A stretch of DNA of 38,928 bases, taken from the NCBI GenBank assembly GCA_013178165.1, contig JABLXG010000002.1:1-38928 (forward strand). The letters run 5' to 3'. Numbering within the stretch: the stretch's first letter is position 1; every line of letters begins with the position of its first letter. Under the pieces are notes generated by a model. That model searched no databases. It had not been told where the DNA came from and saw only the letters and a program-made list of their open reading frames with translations. Positions 1 to 23,222 of the stretch are shown here, one piece after another. Made by a program: the position numbers and the translations under genes. This DNA comes from Anaerolineae bacterium. Lineage in GTDB: Bacteria > Chloroflexota > Anaerolineae > Aggregatilineales > Ch27.

Positions 1-372
1 GTTGGTGTGTTCGTTGGCGTGTTGCTCGGCGTCAACGTTGGCGTGTTCGTCGGCGTCGCCGTGGGTGTATTCGTCGGTGTGTTCGTCGGCGTTGCTGTGT
101 TGGTTGGTGTGTTCGTTGGCGTGTTGCTCGGCGTCAACGTTGGCGTGTTCGTCGGCGTCGCCGTGGGTGTATTCGTCGGGGTGTCGGTCGGCGTTGCCGT
201 GTTGGTTGGTGTGTTGGTTGGCGTGTTGCTCGGCGTCAACGTCGGCGTATTTGTCGGTGTCGCCGTGGGTGTATTCGTCGGTGTGTTCGTTGGCGTTGCC
301 GTGTTGGTTGGTGTGTTGGTTGGCGTGTTACTCGGCGTCAACGTTGGCGTGTTCGTCGGCGTGCTCGTTGGC
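1..372. repeat. 102-bp tandem repeat inside the coding tail
   Basis: The core GTTGCTCGGCGTCAACG recurs at 21, 123, 225 and, with one change (GTTACTC), at 327, giving an exact 102-bp spacing. The units differ by only a few substitutions. Because 102 is divisible by three, each unit encodes a 34-residue block on the minus strand. Within each unit there is a finer 12-18 bp Thr-Pro periodicity. The array begins before the window, so the copy number is unknown. The long plus-strand open frames over it are by-products of the repeat. Confidence 0.93.
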
Positions 373-1733
373 GTATTCGTGGGCGGTGCAGTGGCGGTAC
401 TGGTGGGCGTAGCTGTGGGACTGCCGCCTGTCAGCGGTATATAATTGTGAACGTAGTAGTCGGCGTTTAGATCTGCCGCCAGAACCAGCAAACCGGTTGT
501 CGCATTCACTGTTTGTTTGGTCGAGGTCGGATCGTAGAGATGGTTATACGTGTCATCCTCGATGAATGGCGTCCCCTTCCCCTGAGGGAAAGAGATGTTG
601 TCCAGGCTGGTTTGCTTGTAATAAATGGCCGTCAACGCTTTGCCAGAATTGATCGTCCCACCGCCGGTCTGCACGGCAGCAAAGATGTATAACTGCCGGT
701 TCTGCTCGTCAATGACCACGATGGGGCGGGTGTGATCATCGCCGACCCGGCCAAATACATAGTTGTTCCAGTTGTCAGCGTTATCCAGTACCAACAGGAA
801 GATCAACGGCGCATTCGGGTTCGGGTTCGGCAGGTCGCTGAGGGAAGTCTTGACCACCGCGAACACGCGCCCACTGGAATCGGCAGCCAGCTGTTTGACA
901 TTCAGATGATCGTCGGCTGTCTTCGGTCCCTGGATCGCTGTCCGGCTGGCCTGCCACACGTTGTCAGGATCGCCGTCACGATGTACAGCGAAGAAGATCG
1001 CATCGCTAACCTGGTTGCTCCACATCACCCCGATCTTGGAATCGTAAGCGATCACAGCGGCGATATCGTCGCTGCCAACCGTCGTGCCGTTGACCGGCGG
1101 GATGAACGGCGTCCCCCAGGTCAGGTCATTCCCCACCGTGCGGTTGACATAGACTCTGGCATTTTGCGTATACGCCACCCATAGCTTGCCGGTGCTGTCC
1201 TTATCCAGCACGATCGCTTCCATCCCGGCACTGGTGATGGTGACCGGGAAGCCGGAATCAAGCACGTAGGTCTTGCTGGCGCTGTTGTAGCTGTAGCGCA
1301 AGATACGGGCGCTATCGGCGCTGGTGGAATTGCCCGGCCCGGCAGTGGCGATGTACAGGCGCGTCCCATCCCACAGGGCGTCAGCATGGGAGTTGTTGCG
1401 CTCGTCCACCAGGACGCCGGTATCCGCCCAGGTGTGCGTGGACACATCGTAACGGTAGATACGGTATTCCTGGCTGGTACGATGAAACAACACACCCCAC
1501 CACAGACCGTCATTGAACCACAGTTTGCTCTGGGGTTTTTCACCGGTAGGATGGGTGACGCCGCTGGCGTAGTAAGCGTGATCGCGGTAGCCAACATCGA
1601 TAGCTATCCCGGCGAAGGCACTGCCCACCAGCCCAAAAGCCAGGATAAGTACCAGGTTGATAACAAGAAGTATGCTGCGCCTGGGCAGGCGCCGCCGCAA
1701 CCAAAACTGTAAAACATCATTAAGAGTGTTCAT
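1..1733 (-). CDS. Secreted beta-propeller-like protein with Thr-Pro repeat tail (3' end off window)
   Basis: An open frame starts at ATG 1733, overlaps the upstream stop as ATGA, and stays open to the window edge, so the C-terminus is missing. About 577 codons are visible. The N-terminus has a basic stretch (LRRRLPRRS) and then a hydrophobic segment ending in SAFA, a Sec signal or anchor. Residues ~45-420 read as a repetitive WD/sialidase-like extracellular domain (phrases such as [30 protein letters not shown]). I infer a beta-propeller but cannot assign a family. From about residue 430 the protein becomes almost pure Thr-Pro-Asn ([10 protein letters not shown] type), the low-complexity linker common in surface proteins of Chloroflexota. 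It is the last visible gene of the polysaccharide operon, so a surface or matrix role is likely. The function is unknown. No annotated catalytic residues were recognised. Confidence 0.8.
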
Positions 1734-15982: not shown

Positions 15983-16025
15983 TGTGACTTGAGTCACATC
16001 ACGGGCGTCAGCTTGCTTACATACT
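15983..16025 (+). promoter_or_regulatory. nosZ promoter with perfect CRP-type operator
   Basis: TGTGACTTGAGTCACA (15983-15998) is a perfect dyad (TGTGACT/AGTCACA, 2-bp centre) and fits TGTGA-N6-TCACA exactly. A -10-like CATACT lies at 16020-16025. With transcription starting near 16032, the dyad centre (15990.5) sits at -41.5, the classical class II activator position. There is no FNR-type TTGAT-N4-ATCAA site here. The leader to the nosZ ATG is about 97 nt. Confidence 0.75.
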
Positions 16026-16128: not shown

Positions 16129-18117
16129 ATGAAGACGCATGTATCCCGCTTCAGCCTCGCCCTGACGGTCATCGCCGTCATCGTCACTGCCTTCTTCACC
16201 AGCACGCTCCGGCCCGGCTCTGGGGCCACCGCCCAGGGTCCGGACTGGCAGACCATCGCCCAGCAACGCGGTCTGACCGAAGAAGACCTGCGCGCCGCTG
16301 CCATGACCTACACTCCCAGCGGTATGCTGGACGAGTTCATCCTTTTTGCCTCCGGTGGCCAAAGCGGGCAAGTACTGGTGATCGGCGTGCCTTCCATGCG
16401 CCTGCTGCGCACCATCGCTGTGTTCACCCCGGAACCCTGGCAGGGCTACGGCTACGGGGCGATGGAAGAAGTCCTCGCCGGTGGCAACATTGGTGATCAG
16501 CAAGCCCTGTGGGGCGATTCGCATCACCCCGCCCTCAGCGAAACCGGCGGTCTGTATGACGGCCAATGGCTGTTCATCAACGACAAGGCCAACGGACGCA
16601 TCGCTGTAATTGACCTGCGCGACTTTGAAACCAAGCAGATCGTCAAGAACCCCCTGTTCCTCAACGACCATGGCGGCGCGTTCGTCACGCCCAACACCGA
16701 GTACGTGATTGAAGGCGGGCAATACGCCATGCCGCTTGGCGGCGCCTACGCGCCAATCAGCGACTACGAATCCGCCTACCGCGGCCTGGTAACCTTCTGG
16801 GCTTTTGACCGGCAGACTGGCCGCATCGACCCGAGTCGTTCCTTCGCGCTGGAACTCCCACCGTACTGGCAGGACCTGTGCGACGCCGGCAAGCTGGTCT
16901 CTGAAGGTTGGATCTTCTGCAACTCGTTCAACACAGAACTGGCCACCGGCGGCATTGAAAAGGGCAACCCTCCGTTTGAGGCCGGGGCCAGCCGCGGCAC
17001 AACCGACTTTCTGCACATCATCAACCTCAAGGCCGCCGAGCAGGTCTTCCAATCCGGCCAGACGGTCGAGATCAACGGCATGCAGGTCATCCCCCTGGAT
17101 GTTGCCGTGCAGAACAACCTGCTGTACTTCACGCCAGAGCCGCGCAGTCCACACGGGGTGGATGTCGCGCCACAGGGCGACTTCATCGTCATCTCCGGCA
17201 AACTGGACCCCCATGTTTCCATCTATAGCTGGGCGCGCATCCAGGCCGCTATCGCCGCCGGGCCAGCGGAGACCGACGCCTACGGCGTCCCGATTCTGGC
17301 TCTGGAAGATGTGCTGGAAGCCCAGGTTGAGGTCGGGCTTGGCCCGTTGCATACCCAGTTTGATGATCAGGGGTATGCCTATACCAGCCTGTTCCTAGAT
17401 ACCGCTGTCGCCCGCTGGAGCATGGGCGCAGAGGGCTACCGGCCTCAAGACGGCTGGACCCTGCAGGGCACTATCCCCGTCCAGTACAACATCGGCCATC
17501 TAGTCGTCGCTGGCGGCGACACAATCGCCCCAGATGGCCGCTATCTGGTGGCGCTGAACAAGTGGTCAGTTGACCGCTTCAATAACCTGGGGCCGCTCTT
17601 GCCGCAAAACTTCCAGCTCATCGATATCAGCCAGCCCGGCAGCCAGATGCAACTGCTCTACGACATGCCGATCACAGCAGCCGAACCACATTACTCCCAG
17701 ATCATCCGCGCCGACCGACTCAACGCCTGGGAGGTCTACCCGGAAGTGGGCTGGGACCCGATCACCCAGAGTGTCGATCCGAACGCCGTGGCACCCGGTA
17801 CGGAGGGCATCACCCGCGACGGCAACCATGTCACCGTGCGGATGACCGCCGTCCGCAGCCACTTCAACCCGGAGCATGTCGAAATCCAGGCGGGCGATCA
17901 TGTGACCTGGACGATCACCAGCCTGGAACGCGCTCGCGACGCCACACACGGCTTCGCCATCCCTTACTACGGCATCAACCTGAGCCTGGAGCCGGGGGAG
18001 ACAGTCACGTTCGAGTTCGAAGCGACACAGCCGGGTGTCTTTAGCTACTACTGCACCGAGTTCTGCTCCGCGCTGCATCTGGAGATGGCCGGCTATATGC
18101 TCGTCCAGCCCCAGTAG
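16129..18117 (+). CDS. nosZ: Nitrous oxide reductase NosZ, clade II (Sec-type)
   Basis: A 662-residue precursor of the periplasmic copper enzyme that reduces N2O to N2. The N-terminal ~36 residues are a Sec signal with no twin-arginine pair, the mark of clade II. The CuZ ligands are present as H132-H133 (GDSHHP), H181, H342 (SPHGVDV), H408 (GPLHTQFD), H457 (NIGHLVV) and H521; the 48-residue H133-H181 spacing equals that of Pseudomonas NosZ. The cupredoxin domain has CuA ligands H607, C642, C646, H650 and M653 in CTEFCSALHLEM, with Glu where Pseudomonas has Trp, a backbone-only ligand. AGGAGA precedes the ATG. It heads an operon of nos accessory genes behind a CRP-type promoter. Confidence 0.98.
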   Translation: MKTHVSRFSLALTVIAVIVTAFFTSTLRPGSGATAQGPDWQTIAQQRGLTEEDLRAAAMTYTPSGMLDEFILFASGGQSGQVLVIGVPSMRLLRTIAVFTPEPWQGYGYGAMEEVLAGGNIGDQQALWGDSHHPALSETGGLYDGQWLFINDKANGRIAVIDLRDFETKQIVKNPLFLNDHGGAFVTPNTEYVIEGGQYAMPLGGAYAPISDYESAYRGLVTFWAFDRQTGRIDPSRSFALELPPYWQDLCDAGKLVSEGWIFCNSFNTELATGGIEKGNPPFEAGASRGTTDFLHIINLKAAEQVFQSGQTVEINGMQVIPLDVAVQNNLLYFTPEPRSPHGVDVAPQGDFIVISGKLDPHVSIYSWARIQAAIAAGPAETDAYGVPILALEDVLEAQVEVGLGPLHTQFDDQGYAYTSLFLDTAVARWSMGAEGYRPQDGWTLQGTIPVQYNIGHLVVAGGDTIAPDGRYLVALNKWSVDRFNNLGPLLPQNFQLIDISQPGSQMQLLYDMPITAAEPHYSQIIRADRLNAWEVYPEVGWDPITQSVDPNAVAPGTEGITRDGNHVTVRMTAVRSHFNPEHVEIQAGDHVTWTITSLERARDATHGFAIPYYGINLSLEPGETVTFEFEATQPGVFSYYCTEFCSALHLEMAGYMLVQPQ

Positions 18118-18197: not shown

Positions 18198-18887
18198 ATG
18201 GCGGCTAACTACATCGAAAGCATGGCGAATCGCACCGTCGAGCGTCCGGCCAGCGGCGAATCGCGAGCACGACAGCTGGCAGCCCGCCTGCCCTCGCTGA
18301 CTTATGTCCTAGCGGCGGGCCTGCTGCTAGCCTCAATCGCCCTGCCCTACTGGAATATGACCCTGCTCGCCCCGCAGTATCCCGGAGGCCTGTACGTACG
18401 GGTCTTCGTCAACCGCATGACCGGCGACGATGATCCTGTGCTGGATGAAGTCCGCGAGATCGACAATCTCAACCATTACATCGGGATGCGCCCGCTGGCG
18501 GAGGCTGCGCAGTTCGAGCGCTCGATTGCTGTCCCGGCTCTACTCCTGCTCGCGGGGCTGCTGGTGGTGGCCGCCTTCTGGCGGCGGCGCTGGGGCTGGT
18601 TACTGGTGGTGCCGCCGCTACTTTTCCCGATCGTGTTCCTGGCGGATATGGCCTACTGGCTCAACAACTTTGGCCAGAACCTGGACCCCTACGCGCCGTT
18701 TTCCAGCGCCATTCAGCCATTCACACCACCTATCCTCGGTGAAGGGCTGGTCGGGCAGTTCCGCACGATTGCTGCGCTGGATACAGGTTGGTTCCTGGCG
18801 ACAGCAGGATCGCTACTGATCCTGGCCGGGCTGGTCACTACCCTGGTCCAGGCCCGCCGGGGACACCCTGGAAGAGGAGCGGCCTAG
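18198..18887 (+). CDS. nosB: NosB-like membrane protein
   Basis: A 229-residue protein with a basic cytoplasmic N-terminus and about four spans (~33-50, ~112-128, ~133-152, ~196-216). The first external loop carries NLNHYIGMRPL, and I recall similar His-Tyr-containing phrases from the proteins between nosZ and nosD in clade II clusters. NosB is a conserved but biochemically uncharacterised membrane protein of those clusters; the symbol rests on position, topology and this motif. AAGGAAAGG lies just before ATG. Its stop is 1 bp before the next start. It may link the quinone pool or electron transfer to NosZ, which is inference. Confidence 0.7.
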   Translation: MAANYIESMANRTVERPASGESRARQLAARLPSLTYVLAAGLLLASIALPYWNMTLLAPQYPGGLYVRVFVNRMTGDDDPVLDEVREIDNLNHYIGMRPLAEAAQFERSIAVPALLLLAGLLVVAAFWRRRWGWLLVVPPLLFPIVFLADMAYWLNNFGQNLDPYAPFSSAIQPFTPPILGEGLVGQFRTIAALDTGWFLATAGSLLILAGLVTTLVQARRGHPGRGAA

Positions 18888-18888
18888 A

Positions 18889-21255
18889 ATGCTCAGGCGG
18901 CGGATTGTGTACGCCAGATGGCTGGCGCTGAGTCTTCTCCTGCTGGTCGCGGTGTTACCTGCCCGCGCTGGTAGCGGACAGCGTCTGATTGTTGCGCCGG
19001 GTGGCCCATACCTCTCCATCGCCGCTGCGCTAGCCGCCGCCGCGCCGGGCGACATCGTCGAGGTACGCGGGGGCATACACCCGGCTCCGCTGGAGATCAC
19101 TGTACCCGGTGTCACGCTACAGGGCGTGGATAATCCGGTGATCGATGGCGGTGGGCAAGGCAGCCTGGTCATCATCGCTGCACCGGATGTTTCCCTTCAG
19201 GGATTCACGCTACGTAACACTGGCCGCACACTCAGCCACGAAGACACTGCCATCGTTGCCCAGGCCCCGCGGGTCACCATCGCGGATAACACGCTGGAGA
19301 ACGTGCTGTTCGGCATCTACTTTGCCAACGCGAACAACGGCGTCGCCCGCAACAATGTCGTGCGCGGCCTGGCCCTGGAGCCGTCTCTACGCGGTGATGG
19401 CATCCGGGTGTGGTACAGCAACCATGTCACGCTGGAGAGCAATACCGTAACCAACTCCCGTGACACGTTGATCTGGTATGCGCAGGACATCTTCATCACC
19501 GGTAACACGTTCTCCGGCAATCGCTACGGGCTGCATTTCATGTACTCCAGTCACGCGCGGGTCGAAGATAACACGTTCACCCACAACTCGGTTGGCTCCT
19601 ACCTGATGTATTCGGATGGTCTCATTCTGCGCCATAACACCATTGCCTACAGTCGGGGGCCAAGCGGCTACGGTGTCGCGCTCAAAGATATGGACGATGT
19701 TGAGATGACCGATAACCTGGTCATCGGCAATCGCACCGGACTATACCTGGATAACTCACCGTTCTCGGTCGACCGCTACAATACCTTCACCGGCAATGTC
19801 TTCGCTTTCAACGACCTGGGGGTCAGCGCCCTGCCCGCCGTCGCCCGCAACATCTTCCAGAACAACAGCTTCCTGGAGAACCTGCAACAGACCGGCGTGC
19901 ATGGACGCGGCACTCTGCAAGGCAACATCTGGCACCAGGACGGTCAGGGCAACTACTGGAGCGACTACAGCGGTTATGACGCCGAAGGTGATGGCATCGG
20001 CGACCGGCCCTACCGCGCCGAAAAGCTCTTCGAGAGTCTGGCGGATGCTTACCCGGTTCTGCGTCTGTTCACCTTCAGCCCGGCGGCGGGGGCGATCGAC
20101 TTTGCAGCCTCGGCTTTTCCATCCCTGCGCCCAGAACCGCGTCTGATCGACGAGGCACCGCTGATCCGCTACAACCTGCCAGCCAGTCTCCGGGATGACT
20201 CCGACACGGCTAACCTGCCATTCCTGCTGGGCGCTGGCCTTCTGGCTGCCATCGGGATCGGCGCTGTCGCCCTGGGATTCGCGCCCGGTCGCCCGGCCCC
20301 GGTCAGGGCGGCCATGACGCCGGTCAGCACAGAGAGGCTATCAGCAGTGAGCACAACGAAAGACACGCCGATGATCACCGTACACGATCTCAGCAAGTAT
20401 TACGGCGCCGTTGCGGCGCTGGAGGACGTGACTTTCAGCATCAGCGCGGGCGAAGCTGTGGCCCTGTGGGGCGCCAATGGCGCAGGCAAGACCACTGCCC
20501 TGCGCTGTCTGATGGGCGTGATCCCCTTCACGGGCCAGGTCACAGTCAACGGCCTGGACCCGCAACGCCAGGGCCGGGCTGTACGCAGCGCGATCGGCTA
20601 TGTGCCACAGGAAGCCGCTTTCTACGACCTGACGGCGCGGGAGGTACTGGCTTTTTACGCCCGGCTGAAGAAAGCGCCCGCGGCGCGCATCGCAACAGTG
20701 CTGGAACAGGTTGACCTGGCCGATCACGCCGATAAAACGGTCAGCGCGCTCTCCGGCGGCATGAAGCGGCGGCTGGCGCTGGCTGCCGCCCTGCTCGCCG
20801 ACCCGCCTATCCTGCTGCTGGACGAGCCGACAGCCAACCTGGACGCACAATCCCGCCAATCCTTCCTGCAGCTTGTTCGTGAACTGAACCGTGCCGGTAA
20901 GACGATCGTGTTCTCCTCCCACCGGCTGGAAGAAGTGGCGACCCTGGCAGAGCGGGCGATCGTACTGGAGCGTGGGCGGCTCATCCGCGACTGCCGCCCA
21001 GACGAGCTGGCCGGGCTGCCGGGTGCAGCGCGTTGGCTGCGCGTATACCTGCCGCCTGACCGGCACGAACAGGCCGCCCGGTTGTTGGGAACACAGGGAT
21101 TCGCTGTAGCACCCAACGGTCAGGCCCTGTATGTGGGGGTAGGCGCGGGCAGCCGGATGCAGCCTTTGCGCCTGCTAGAAGCCGCGCAAATCCCGGTAGA
21201 AGATTTCGATCTGGTGGATGGGGAGGGCCTGACCCTCCCAGAGGACTTCGTATGA
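18889..21255 (+). CDS. nosDF: NosD-NosF fusion: periplasmic beta-helix, membrane span, ABC ATPase
   Basis: A single 788-codon frame. Residues 1-28 are a Sec signal. Residues ~40-390 form the NosD/CASH parallel beta-helix (repeats such as NTFSGNRYGLHFMYSS). Residues ~443-465 are a membrane span (FLLGAGLLAAIGIGAVALGF). Residues ~495-788 form a complete NosF-type ABC ATPase: Walker A GANGAGKTT (528-536), Q574, signature LSGGM (621-625), Walker B LLLDEP (642-647) and H678. NosD and NosF are normally separate proteins working with permease NosY in maturing the NosZ copper centre. The topology is consistent, with the helix outside, one span, and the ATPase inside. An internal GTG at 20347, with AGAGAGG 9 nt upstream, and ATGs at 20314 and 20371 could yield free NosF. 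The stop overlaps nosY (ATGA). Confidence 0.92.
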   Translation: MLRRRIVYARWLALSLLLLVAVLPARAGSGQRLIVAPGGPYLSIAAALAAAAPGDIVEVRGGIHPAPLEITVPGVTLQGVDNPVIDGGGQGSLVIIAAPDVSLQGFTLRNTGRTLSHEDTAIVAQAPRVTIADNTLENVLFGIYFANANNGVARNNVVRGLALEPSLRGDGIRVWYSNHVTLESNTVTNSRDTLIWYAQDIFITGNTFSGNRYGLHFMYSSHARVEDNTFTHNSVGSYLMYSDGLILRHNTIAYSRGPSGYGVALKDMDDVEMTDNLVIGNRTGLYLDNSPFSVDRYNTFTGNVFAFNDLGVSALPAVARNIFQNNSFLENLQQTGVHGRGTLQGNIWHQDGQGNYWSDYSGYDAEGDGIGDRPYRAEKLFESLADAYPVLRLFTFSPAAGAIDFAASAFPSLRPEPRLIDEAPLIRYNLPASLRDDSDTANLPFLLGAGLLAAIGIGAVALGFAPGRPAPVRAAMTPVSTERLSAVSTTKDTPMITVHDLSKYYGAVAALEDVTFSISAGEAVALWGANGAGKTTALRCLMGVIPFTGQVTVNGLDPQRQGRAVRSAIGYVPQEAAFYDLTAREVLAFYARLKKAPAARIATVLEQVDLADHADKTVSALSGGMKRRLALAAALLADPPILLLDEPTANLDAQSRQSFLQLVRELNRAGKTIVFSSHRLEEVATLAERAIVLERGRLIRDCRPDELAGLPGAARWLRVYLPPDRHEQAARLLGTQGFAVAPNGQALYVGVGAGSRMQPLRLLEAAQIPVEDFDLVDGEGLTLPEDFV

Positions 21256-22103
21256 TCGACCTGAGCAACGTTCAAACCATCGCCCGCAAAGAGCTGCGTG
21301 ACGCGCTGCGCAACCGCTGGTTCGTGCTGTACACGCTGGCGTTTGGCGGGCTGGCGCTGGCCCTTTCCGCGCTGTCACACCCCGGCGGCGGGCTGGCCAA
21401 TCTGGCTGGCTACGGACGCACGGCAGCCAGCCTGGTCAACCTGGTGTTGCTCTTCGTGCCCCTGATCGGCCTGACCCTGGGCGCGGCCAACCTGGCTGGG
21501 GAGCGGGAGACCGGCGCGCTAGACTACCTGCTCACCCAGCCGGTTACCCGTCCAGAGGTGTTGCTGGGCAAGTATGTCGGGCTGGCGGCGGCGCTGCTGG
21601 CCTCGCTGGGTCTGGGCTTTGGACTGGCTGGAGTCTTCCTGGCGCTGCGCGGACAGGGGGGCGATCCAGCCGGCTACATCGTGACGGTATTGATCGCCTG
21701 GCTGCTGGGCCTGGCGATGCTCAGTTTGGGGCTACTGCTCTCCATTGTGGCTCGCCGGACTTCGGGGGCGCTGGGCGCAGCGTTGTTTCTGTGGCTTGTG
21801 CTTGTCTTCATGGGCGATCTAGGGATCATGGGTGCGGCCATCATCACCCAGCTGCCGATCGAGCAGGTACTGCTGCTGGCCTCGCTCAACCCACTGCAAC
21901 TCTTCAAGACAGCCGCCATCCTGACCATCCAGGCCAACCTGGAGGTGCTCGGCCCGGCGGGTCTATACGCCACCGATCGCTTCGGCAGCGCCCTGCTGCC
22001 GCTGCTTGTGGGAGGATTACTGATCTGGATGGTGTTGCCGTTAGCTGGCGCGCTTATCCTGTTTGTGCGCCAGGGCAACAGACAAAAGGAGCACAGAACA
22101 TGA
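21252..22103 (+). CDS. nosY: NosY ABC-2-type permease
   Basis: A 283-residue membrane protein with about six spans. It begins with the cytoplasmic IARKELRDALRNRWFVLY element typical of NosY/ABC-2 permeases, then VLLFVPLIGLTLGAANLAGERETGALDYLLTQ-like family sequence around residues 68-97. NosY pairs with the NosF ATPase and contacts NosD, and the complex is needed for copper-centre assembly in NosZ. The ATG overlaps the nosDF stop, and its own stop overlaps the next ATG (ATGA), so the genes are translationally coupled. Confidence 0.93.
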   Translation: MIDLSNVQTIARKELRDALRNRWFVLYTLAFGGLALALSALSHPGGGLANLAGYGRTAASLVNLVLLFVPLIGLTLGAANLAGERETGALDYLLTQPVTRPEVLLGKYVGLAAALLASLGLGFGLAGVFLALRGQGGDPAGYIVTVLIAWLLGLAMLSLGLLLSIVARRTSGALGAALFLWLVLVFMGDLGIMGAAIITQLPIEQVLLLASLNPLQLFKTAAILTIQANLEVLGPAGLYATDRFGSALLPLLVGGLLIWMVLPLAGALILFVRQGNRQKEHRT

Positions 22104-22588
22104 AAAGCAGGTGGTTCCTGCTGGCACTGATGCTGCTGGTGGCAGCCGGATGCGGCCAGGTGGCAGCAGAAGTCCAGCCGGTTAATGATCTGGCAATCGA
22201 ACTGGTGGTTGAGCCTTCCCCTCCGGCAGCCGGAGAAGCGACGCTGATCATCACTGTCACCGATGCTTCCGGCACGCCGATTGATGGTGCGATAGTTCGC
22301 GCCCACGGGGACATGGATCACGCAGGTATGGAGTCAGTTGATGGCCAGACTGCCGAAAGCACTGCCGGCGTGTACCGGGTGCCGTTCACCTGGACGATGG
22401 GCGGCGGCTGGATTCTGGATGTGACCGTCGCCTTGCCCAATAATCGGGGGTCGGTCACCCGACGCTTTGAACTGTTTGTTGAGGCCGTCTCGCACGATAG
22501 CATCCTGCACGAATCCAGCGGTCAGGCTTCAAACGGGGACGACCAGCCCGTTGAGGCGCCAGCGGAGAAACACAGCACAGGCCACTAG
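22100..22588 (+). CDS. YtkA/FixH-like lipoprotein with Met/His cluster
   Basis: A 162-residue protein. The lipobox is at the end of the signal (LLVAAGC, C19), so it is probably lipid-anchored outside the membrane. Residues ~30-130 look like a YtkA/FixH immunoglobulin-like domain (EATLIITVTDASGTPIDGA). The loop HGDMDHAGM packs His, Asp and Met in a pattern suited to Cu(I)/Cu(II) binding. The C-terminal ~30 residues are hydrophilic and end in His (EKHSTGH). It is translationally coupled to nosY, which makes a copper-delivery or sensing role for NosZ plausible. It is not NosL by sequence; no nosL is visible in the window. Confidence 0.75.
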   Translation: MKSRWFLLALMLLVAAGCGQVAAEVQPVNDLAIELVVEPSPPAAGEATLIITVTDASGTPIDGAIVRAHGDMDHAGMESVDGQTAESTAGVYRVPFTWTMGGGWILDVTVALPNNRGSVTRRFELFVEAVSHDSILHESSGQASNGDDQPVEAPAEKHSTGH

Positions 22589-22613: not shown

Positions 22614-23222
22614 ATGACTGGTAAAGAGACAACAAATATGTGGTGGGGCTGGCTGAAGCAGGTCGCTAACCCGGACAGCCAGTGGGGATGCCTGCTCCTG
22701 CCGGCAGGGGTCCTGACTTTTCTGGGTCTGATGACCCTGCCGCTGATCGCGATTGTGATCTTTATCGCCCTCCAGAGTACCTCCAGCGCCCCAGCTGCCC
22801 CGCCGCCGATCACGGCTGTCGCCTTCATGGAGGCAATCGCCACGCCTACCATCGATCTGCCAACTGCCACGCCAATCCTCCCGCCAGCGATTATCACCCC
22901 AGTGGTTGCGGCCGATCTCCCGGCTTACGCACCTGAGGCCGTGGCCGCCGGGGAGGCGGCTTACGCCTCGCTGTGCACGGCCTGTCATGGCCCGGACGCA
23001 CGCGGCCTGCCCAACCTGGGCAAAGATCTGGTCGACAGTGAGTTCGTGCGCAGCCAGAGTGACCGCGAGCTACAGCAGTTCATCATCATGGGCCGTCCAA
23101 TCTGGGACCCGGCCAATACAACAGGCGTTGACATGCCGCCACGCGGTGGCAACCCCGCCCTCAGTAACGAGGATATCCTGAACATCATCGCCTACCTGCG
23201 CAGCCTGCAATCCACACCGTGA
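22614..23222 (+). CDS. Membrane-anchored monohaem cytochrome c
   Basis: A 202-residue protein. One N-terminal membrane anchor (~27-53) is followed by a Pro/Thr-rich linker (ATPTIDLPTATPILPP) and a class I cytochrome c domain with CTACH (121-125). The distal ligand is probably M174 in DMPPRGGNPALS. AGAGGA is 6 nt before ATG 22614; a longer frame upstream overlaps the lipoprotein gene and looks spurious. As the last nos-operon gene it is the obvious electron donor to periplasmic NosZ (inference), comparable to the c-type cytochromes of other clade II clusters. Confidence 0.88.
   Translation: MTGKETTNMWWGWLKQVANPDSQWGCLLLPAGVLTFLGLMTLPLIAIVIFIALQSTSSAPAAPPPITAVAFMEAIATPTIDLPTATPILPPAIITPVVAADLPAYAPEAVAAGEAAYASLCTACHGPDARGLPNLGKDLVDSEFVRSQSDRELQQFIIMGRPIWDPANTTGVDMPPRGGNPALSNEDILNIIAYLRSLQSTP

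Follow-up and report, generated by a model that had tools for sequence, protein, structure and literature searches.

Does a single gene in the nos operon of an Anaerolineae bacterium encode both NosD and NosF and, if so, how would such a joined chain fit into a complex whose solved Pseudomonas version holds the two subunits in unequal numbers? NosDFY is the machine that assembles the copper site of NosZ, and the reduction of N2O, a greenhouse gas, depends on it; NosD and NosF are normally separate proteins. We addressed this question for a stretch of 38,928 nucleotides (contig JABLXG010000002.1 of assembly GCA_013178165.1, hereafter the window), for which the original prediction had proposed that a NosD–NosF fusion creates a tether through the membrane and fixes the two subunits at 1:1. 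The outcome of our analysis is mixed in this respect: the nosZ operon does contain a real fusion of NosD-TM-NosF type, while the membrane tether as a product of fusion and the 1:1 ratio as worded were not upheld. With high probability, nosD-F is the sole source of NosF in this genome, encodes it in covalent linkage to a membrane-anchored NosD, and represents the lineage-typical one-chain form of these subunits within NosDFY.

Architecture of the Fused NosD-NosF Chain

The nosD-F gene (18889–21255, + strand) is an ATG-initiated open frame of 788 codons that runs without interruption from a signal peptide into a NosD beta-helix, across a single membrane helix at the C-terminal end of NosD and a disordered linker, and on through a complete NosF ATPase. 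The Sec-type signal peptide (residues ~1–27; 18889–18969) was assigned by eye together with a model helix at residues 2–21. The NosD beta-helix and its C-terminal helices occupy residues 32–409 (18982–20115), and profile searches matched this part to TIGR04247 (NosD; 393.2 bits against a cut-off of 300, residues 44–427) and PF05048 (149.1 bits). It is followed by a single membrane helix (residues 443–463; 20215–20277; hydropathy 2.21 over 19 residues) and by a flexible linker (residues 464–493; 20278–20367), which is not conserved in the alignment and has pLDDT values under 50 at residues 466–490. The NosF ATPase domain (residues 494–707; 20368–21009) matches PF00005 (ABC ATPase; 109 bits, residues 511–649) and, by sequence, the solved NosF chain 7o0y_B (E 2.6e-40), and it carries Walker A (GANGAGKT, 528–535), Q-loop (VPQE, 572–575), signature (LSGGM, 621–625), Walker B (LLLDEP, 642–647), D-loop (NLDA, 650–653) and H-loop (SSHR, 676–679) motifs. 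The small C-terminal domain of NosF (residues 715–777; 21031–21219) was delineated from the model.

The AlphaFold2 model of the product (mean pLDDT 88.8), for which 39 fused proteins were aligned, contains the signal helix, the beta-helix with its C-terminal helices, the membrane helix, the disordered segment, the ATPase and the small C-terminal domain, and in a Foldseek search this single model matched solved NosD (7o0y_A, 7osf_A) as well as solved NosF (7o0y_B/C, 7osf_B). Frame, profiles, motifs and model together confirm the predicted 788-codon frame with a Sec signal, NosD, one membrane span and the NosF motifs.

Judging from homology, the beta-helix would be exported by Sec and the membrane helix would stop transfer. 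The flexible linker of ~30 residues would give the cytoplasmic ATPase room to dimerize with another copy and to bind the NosY dimer, and ATP cycling would be passed via NosY to NosD, which would deliver what the NosZ copper site needs. We infer the topology, activity and subunit ratio of the chain, and a role in NosZ maturation is suggested by homology and operon context. Counting against the proposed topology is one fused locus (L088) that has no hydrophobic segment between the two domains, so that its NosF would end up on the wrong side of the membrane; the proposed topology does not account for this case, in which a deletion, an error or another topology may be involved.

Context of the Fused Gene in the nos Operon

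The operon in the window is of the clade II nos type and comprises nosZ, a nosB-like gene, nosD-F and nosY, all on the + strand. The Sec-dependent (clade II) nosZ (16129–18117; TIGR04246, 807.1 bits over 625) is followed, between nosZ and nosD, by the nosB-like gene (18198–18887), the product of which is a four-helix membrane protein of 229 residues that gave no Pfam or NCBIfam match in profile searches; its name was given by position (PMC3475470, PMC11409646), and homologues precede nosD in relatives. The start codon of the nosY permease gene (21252–22103; PDB 7o0y_D, E 6.8e-20) overlaps the nosD-F stop as ATGA. Further downstream, also on the + strand, are genes for a YtkA-like lipoprotein (22094–22588; PF13115, 49.3 bits) and for a membrane-anchored c-type cytochrome (22614–23222; PF13442, PF00034), the latter being a possible electron donor to NosZ.

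A side-by-side comparison with Pseudomonas stutzeri NosDFY (7o0y; 7osf for NosDFYL) revealed, by sequence and fold matches, a shared beta-helix NosD, NosF ATPase, NosY and adjoining nosZ. The locus has a NosD-family beta-helix, a NosF with complete catalytic motifs, an adjoining NosY and a nosZ in the operon; what differs is the usual form with NosD and NosF as separate polypeptides, a feature not essential to function, which is replaced here by one frame. By every sequence feature tested, the system in the window is NosDFY, except that two of its subunits are joined.

Another counterpart is provided by Thermomicrobium roseum, which has the same NosD-TM-NosF chain (WP_012643063.1) and shares the order nosZ, membrane protein, nosD-F, nosY. 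In T. roseum NosL is encoded after nosY, whereas no PF05573 (NosL) match was found anywhere in the genome of the window (98.6% complete). The YtkA-like lipoprotein gene occupies the place where T. roseum has nosL, and its product might be a stand-in copper chaperone. Two tandem Crp/Fnr-type regulator genes are located upstream of nosZ, and behind them, 127 bases before nosZ, lies an imperfect FNR-like palindrome, TTGAGTCACATCAC (15989–16002). A tandem array (102-base unit, 3.7 copies, 92% matches) occupies the edge of the window (1–385).

Occurrence in Anaerolineae and Other Chloroflexota

The NosD-NosF architecture is real and common in Chloroflexota and is not private to the genome of the window. 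A contig scan with a single-protein query returned only five loci. A class survey, in which the NosD part was searched in 396 Anaerolineae genomes and the DNA of the matches was then examined, yielded 79 loci with NosF adjoining NosD, 50 of them fused in one frame and 29 present as two genes (the latter including L089, taken from another collection and labelled Anaerolineae in its record). Eight more fused loci outside Anaerolineae (L095, L098, L099, L100, L103–L106) came from a phylum-wide sample. In the cultured isolate T. roseum DSM 5159, the fused chain (783 aa) is encoded on a finished replicon and is annotated as "NosD" only; besides this finished genome, the single frame is present in 57 other sampled genomes. 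Chance does not account for the fusion in the window, given the same architecture in dozens of relatives, and an assembly artefact as a general explanation is ruled out by these 57 genomes and the finished isolate genome. The architecture that the original prediction had described, as well as a junction free of stop or frameshift, recurs in many relatives including this isolate. Separate nosD and nosF genes were found in the alphaproteobacterial, bacteroidotal and haloarchaeal clusters examined, these outgroups being a few loci.

Other joined frames were also encountered. In five loci from other Chloroflexota (L107, L111, L112, L113, L114), NosD carries the nosB-like protein as an in-frame N-terminal extension and NosF is separate; NosD is joined to either neighbour (nosB-like or NosF) in different lineages. 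A single NosD-NosF-NosY frame (L055) was set aside as probably not real, in view of ambiguous bases, one of them at the NosF/NosY junction.

The fused protein is already in databases under the name NosD. This constitutes an annotation trap, since nosF seems missing in fused genomes (e.g., T. roseum) because the joint gene is called nosD. A Thermoflexus paper gives the full system as nosZDYL, without nosF (PMC8129789), which would fit a fused nosD-F. No published description of a NosD-NosF fusion was found in the literature, which was screened mostly at the level of titles and the first lines of abstracts, so that absence is not proven.

Origin of the Fusion

A C-terminal membrane helix is a feature of Anaerolineae NosDs, fused or separate, with L088 as the one exception. 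The separate Anaerolineae pairs (e.g., L010–L013, L089) are 51–60% identical to the fused chain of the window and their NosD likewise ends in such a helix; one of them (L010) also has a nosB-like gene before nosD, as in the window. Because separate NosDs of Anaerolineae carry the membrane helix, it is not a product of the fusion, and the proposal that fusion created the tether through the membrane had to be given up. In contrast to the NosD of the window, the proteobacterial NosDs checked (L090–L093) have no C-terminal membrane helix. For Bacillus azotoformans, the published account (PMC3475470) reports this helix on all five NosDs and a four-helix protein gene after nosZ, as well as a separate NosF and the gene order nosD-nosY-nosF.

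In the separate Anaerolineae pairs, NosD and NosF are encoded by two genes that often overlap (13/29 pairs, mostly as ATGA), and one small indel would join the two frames. Fusion would arise easily, since NosD in this phylum already ends in a membrane helix and a cytoplasm-facing tail and the two genes often overlap; a small indel between this tail and NosF is probably all that is needed. On a tree of NosD plus NosF, the fused/separate label switches at least 7–8 times, compared with a mean of 25.6 for shuffled labels, with whole clades uniformly fused and many families uniform in label.

Subunit Ratio of the Complex

In P. stutzeri, NosDFY is made of three separate proteins, with one NosD, two NosF and two NosY. 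This 1:2:2 ratio was derived by counting chains in PDB entries of the Pseudomonas complex (16 NosD chains in 16 entries, 30 NosF chains in 15 and 34 NosY chains in 17), and the claim that fusion fixes NosD to NosF at 1:1 conflicts with it: given this ratio, a plain 1:1 chain needs either a complex with two NosDs or NosF from some other source. An additional nosF gene at another locus, providing free ATPase, was rejected as such a source. In the genome of the window none was found, the best other ATPase match having only 37% identity and 142 bits, which makes the fused domain the only NosF of this genome. Nor was a second NosF-grade ATPase found in seven fused relatives, where the fused copy scored 221–350 bits and the others at most 154.

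A fused chain without another source of NosF implies two NosDs per complex. The base form that we favour has a NosY dimer carrying two fusion chains; in many lineages, an internal start may additionally supply free NosF. What counts against this explanation is the Pseudomonas complex with its single NosD for every two NosF, since two NosDs per core would be a new arrangement. The covalent link limits the number of NosDs on one ABC core and makes the NosDFY subunit ratio testable; the fusion also offers a natural single chain in which to follow how ATP use in the cytoplasm is relayed to periplasmic NosD.

The most serious competing explanation, to which we give a limited but appreciable chance, is that one gene has two products, the full chain and a free NosF whose translation begins within the linker; NosY2 would then carry a tethered ATPase next to a free one, and the 1:2:2 ratio would be kept. 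Of 34 non-redundant fused genes, 31 (13.6 expected) have an in-frame ATG either within the linker or where NosF used to start, and the Shine-Dalgarno energy is -4.8 kcal/mol for these ATGs vs. -3.3 kcal/mol for other in-frame ATGs (P about 1e-4), with the same direction in 13/16 families (P 0.012). In the window, a Shine-Dalgarno-like GAGAGG (20332–20337, + strand) precedes a candidate internal GTG start of a free NosF (20347–20349, + strand), and its duplex energy of -6.5 kcal/mol is similar to that of the operon's own starts (-5.8 to -8.6); other candidates are ATG 20314 and ATG 20371. Nevertheless, the best candidate in the window is a GTG and not an ATG, T. roseum has no linker ATG, and in family f16 such an ATG is either absent or lacks a Shine-Dalgarno sequence. 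Moreover, with the old NosF start set aside, the Met content of linkers (2.1%) does not exceed that of the tails of separate NosDs (2.6%). Linker Met enrichment as a proof of internal starts was rejected on this account, which leaves only the position of the old start and the Shine-Dalgarno signal; the signal as a whole may in part be left over from recent fusion. An asymmetric complex with a fused and a free ATPase on NosY2 where a linker start is present, with a symmetric two-NosD form in T. roseum and f16, is put forward tentatively, as the less likely arrangement; both modes, two-NosD and internal-start NosF, may be present. If true, translation signals within a gene would determine how many subunits NosDFY contains.

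It is improbable that the chain is made in one piece and that a protease then cuts the linker into separate NosD and NosF: the linker is indeed long, disordered and not conserved, but no conserved cleavage motif was seen in the alignment summary, and cleavage would not account for the retention of the fusion throughout whole clades.

Junction in the Window

The nosD-F junction in the window rests on one assembly, and of the families closest to it, f3 is fused while f2 and f5 have separate genes. A one-base assembly error concealing two ATGA-overlapping genes, as in f2 and f5, is still more improbable. Near relatives (L010–L013) do have separate nosD and nosF, and in frame +1 the stops at 20315, 20348 and 20372 all share bases with a start codon while none occurs between 20163 and 20314, so that a one-base indel at 20163–20314 would restore separate genes. 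However, the architecture itself is confirmed by the 57 other genomes and the finished one, and family f3, from the same taxonomic order as the window, is fused in 3/3 loci and falls together with the window on the tree, albeit with weak support (79/54).
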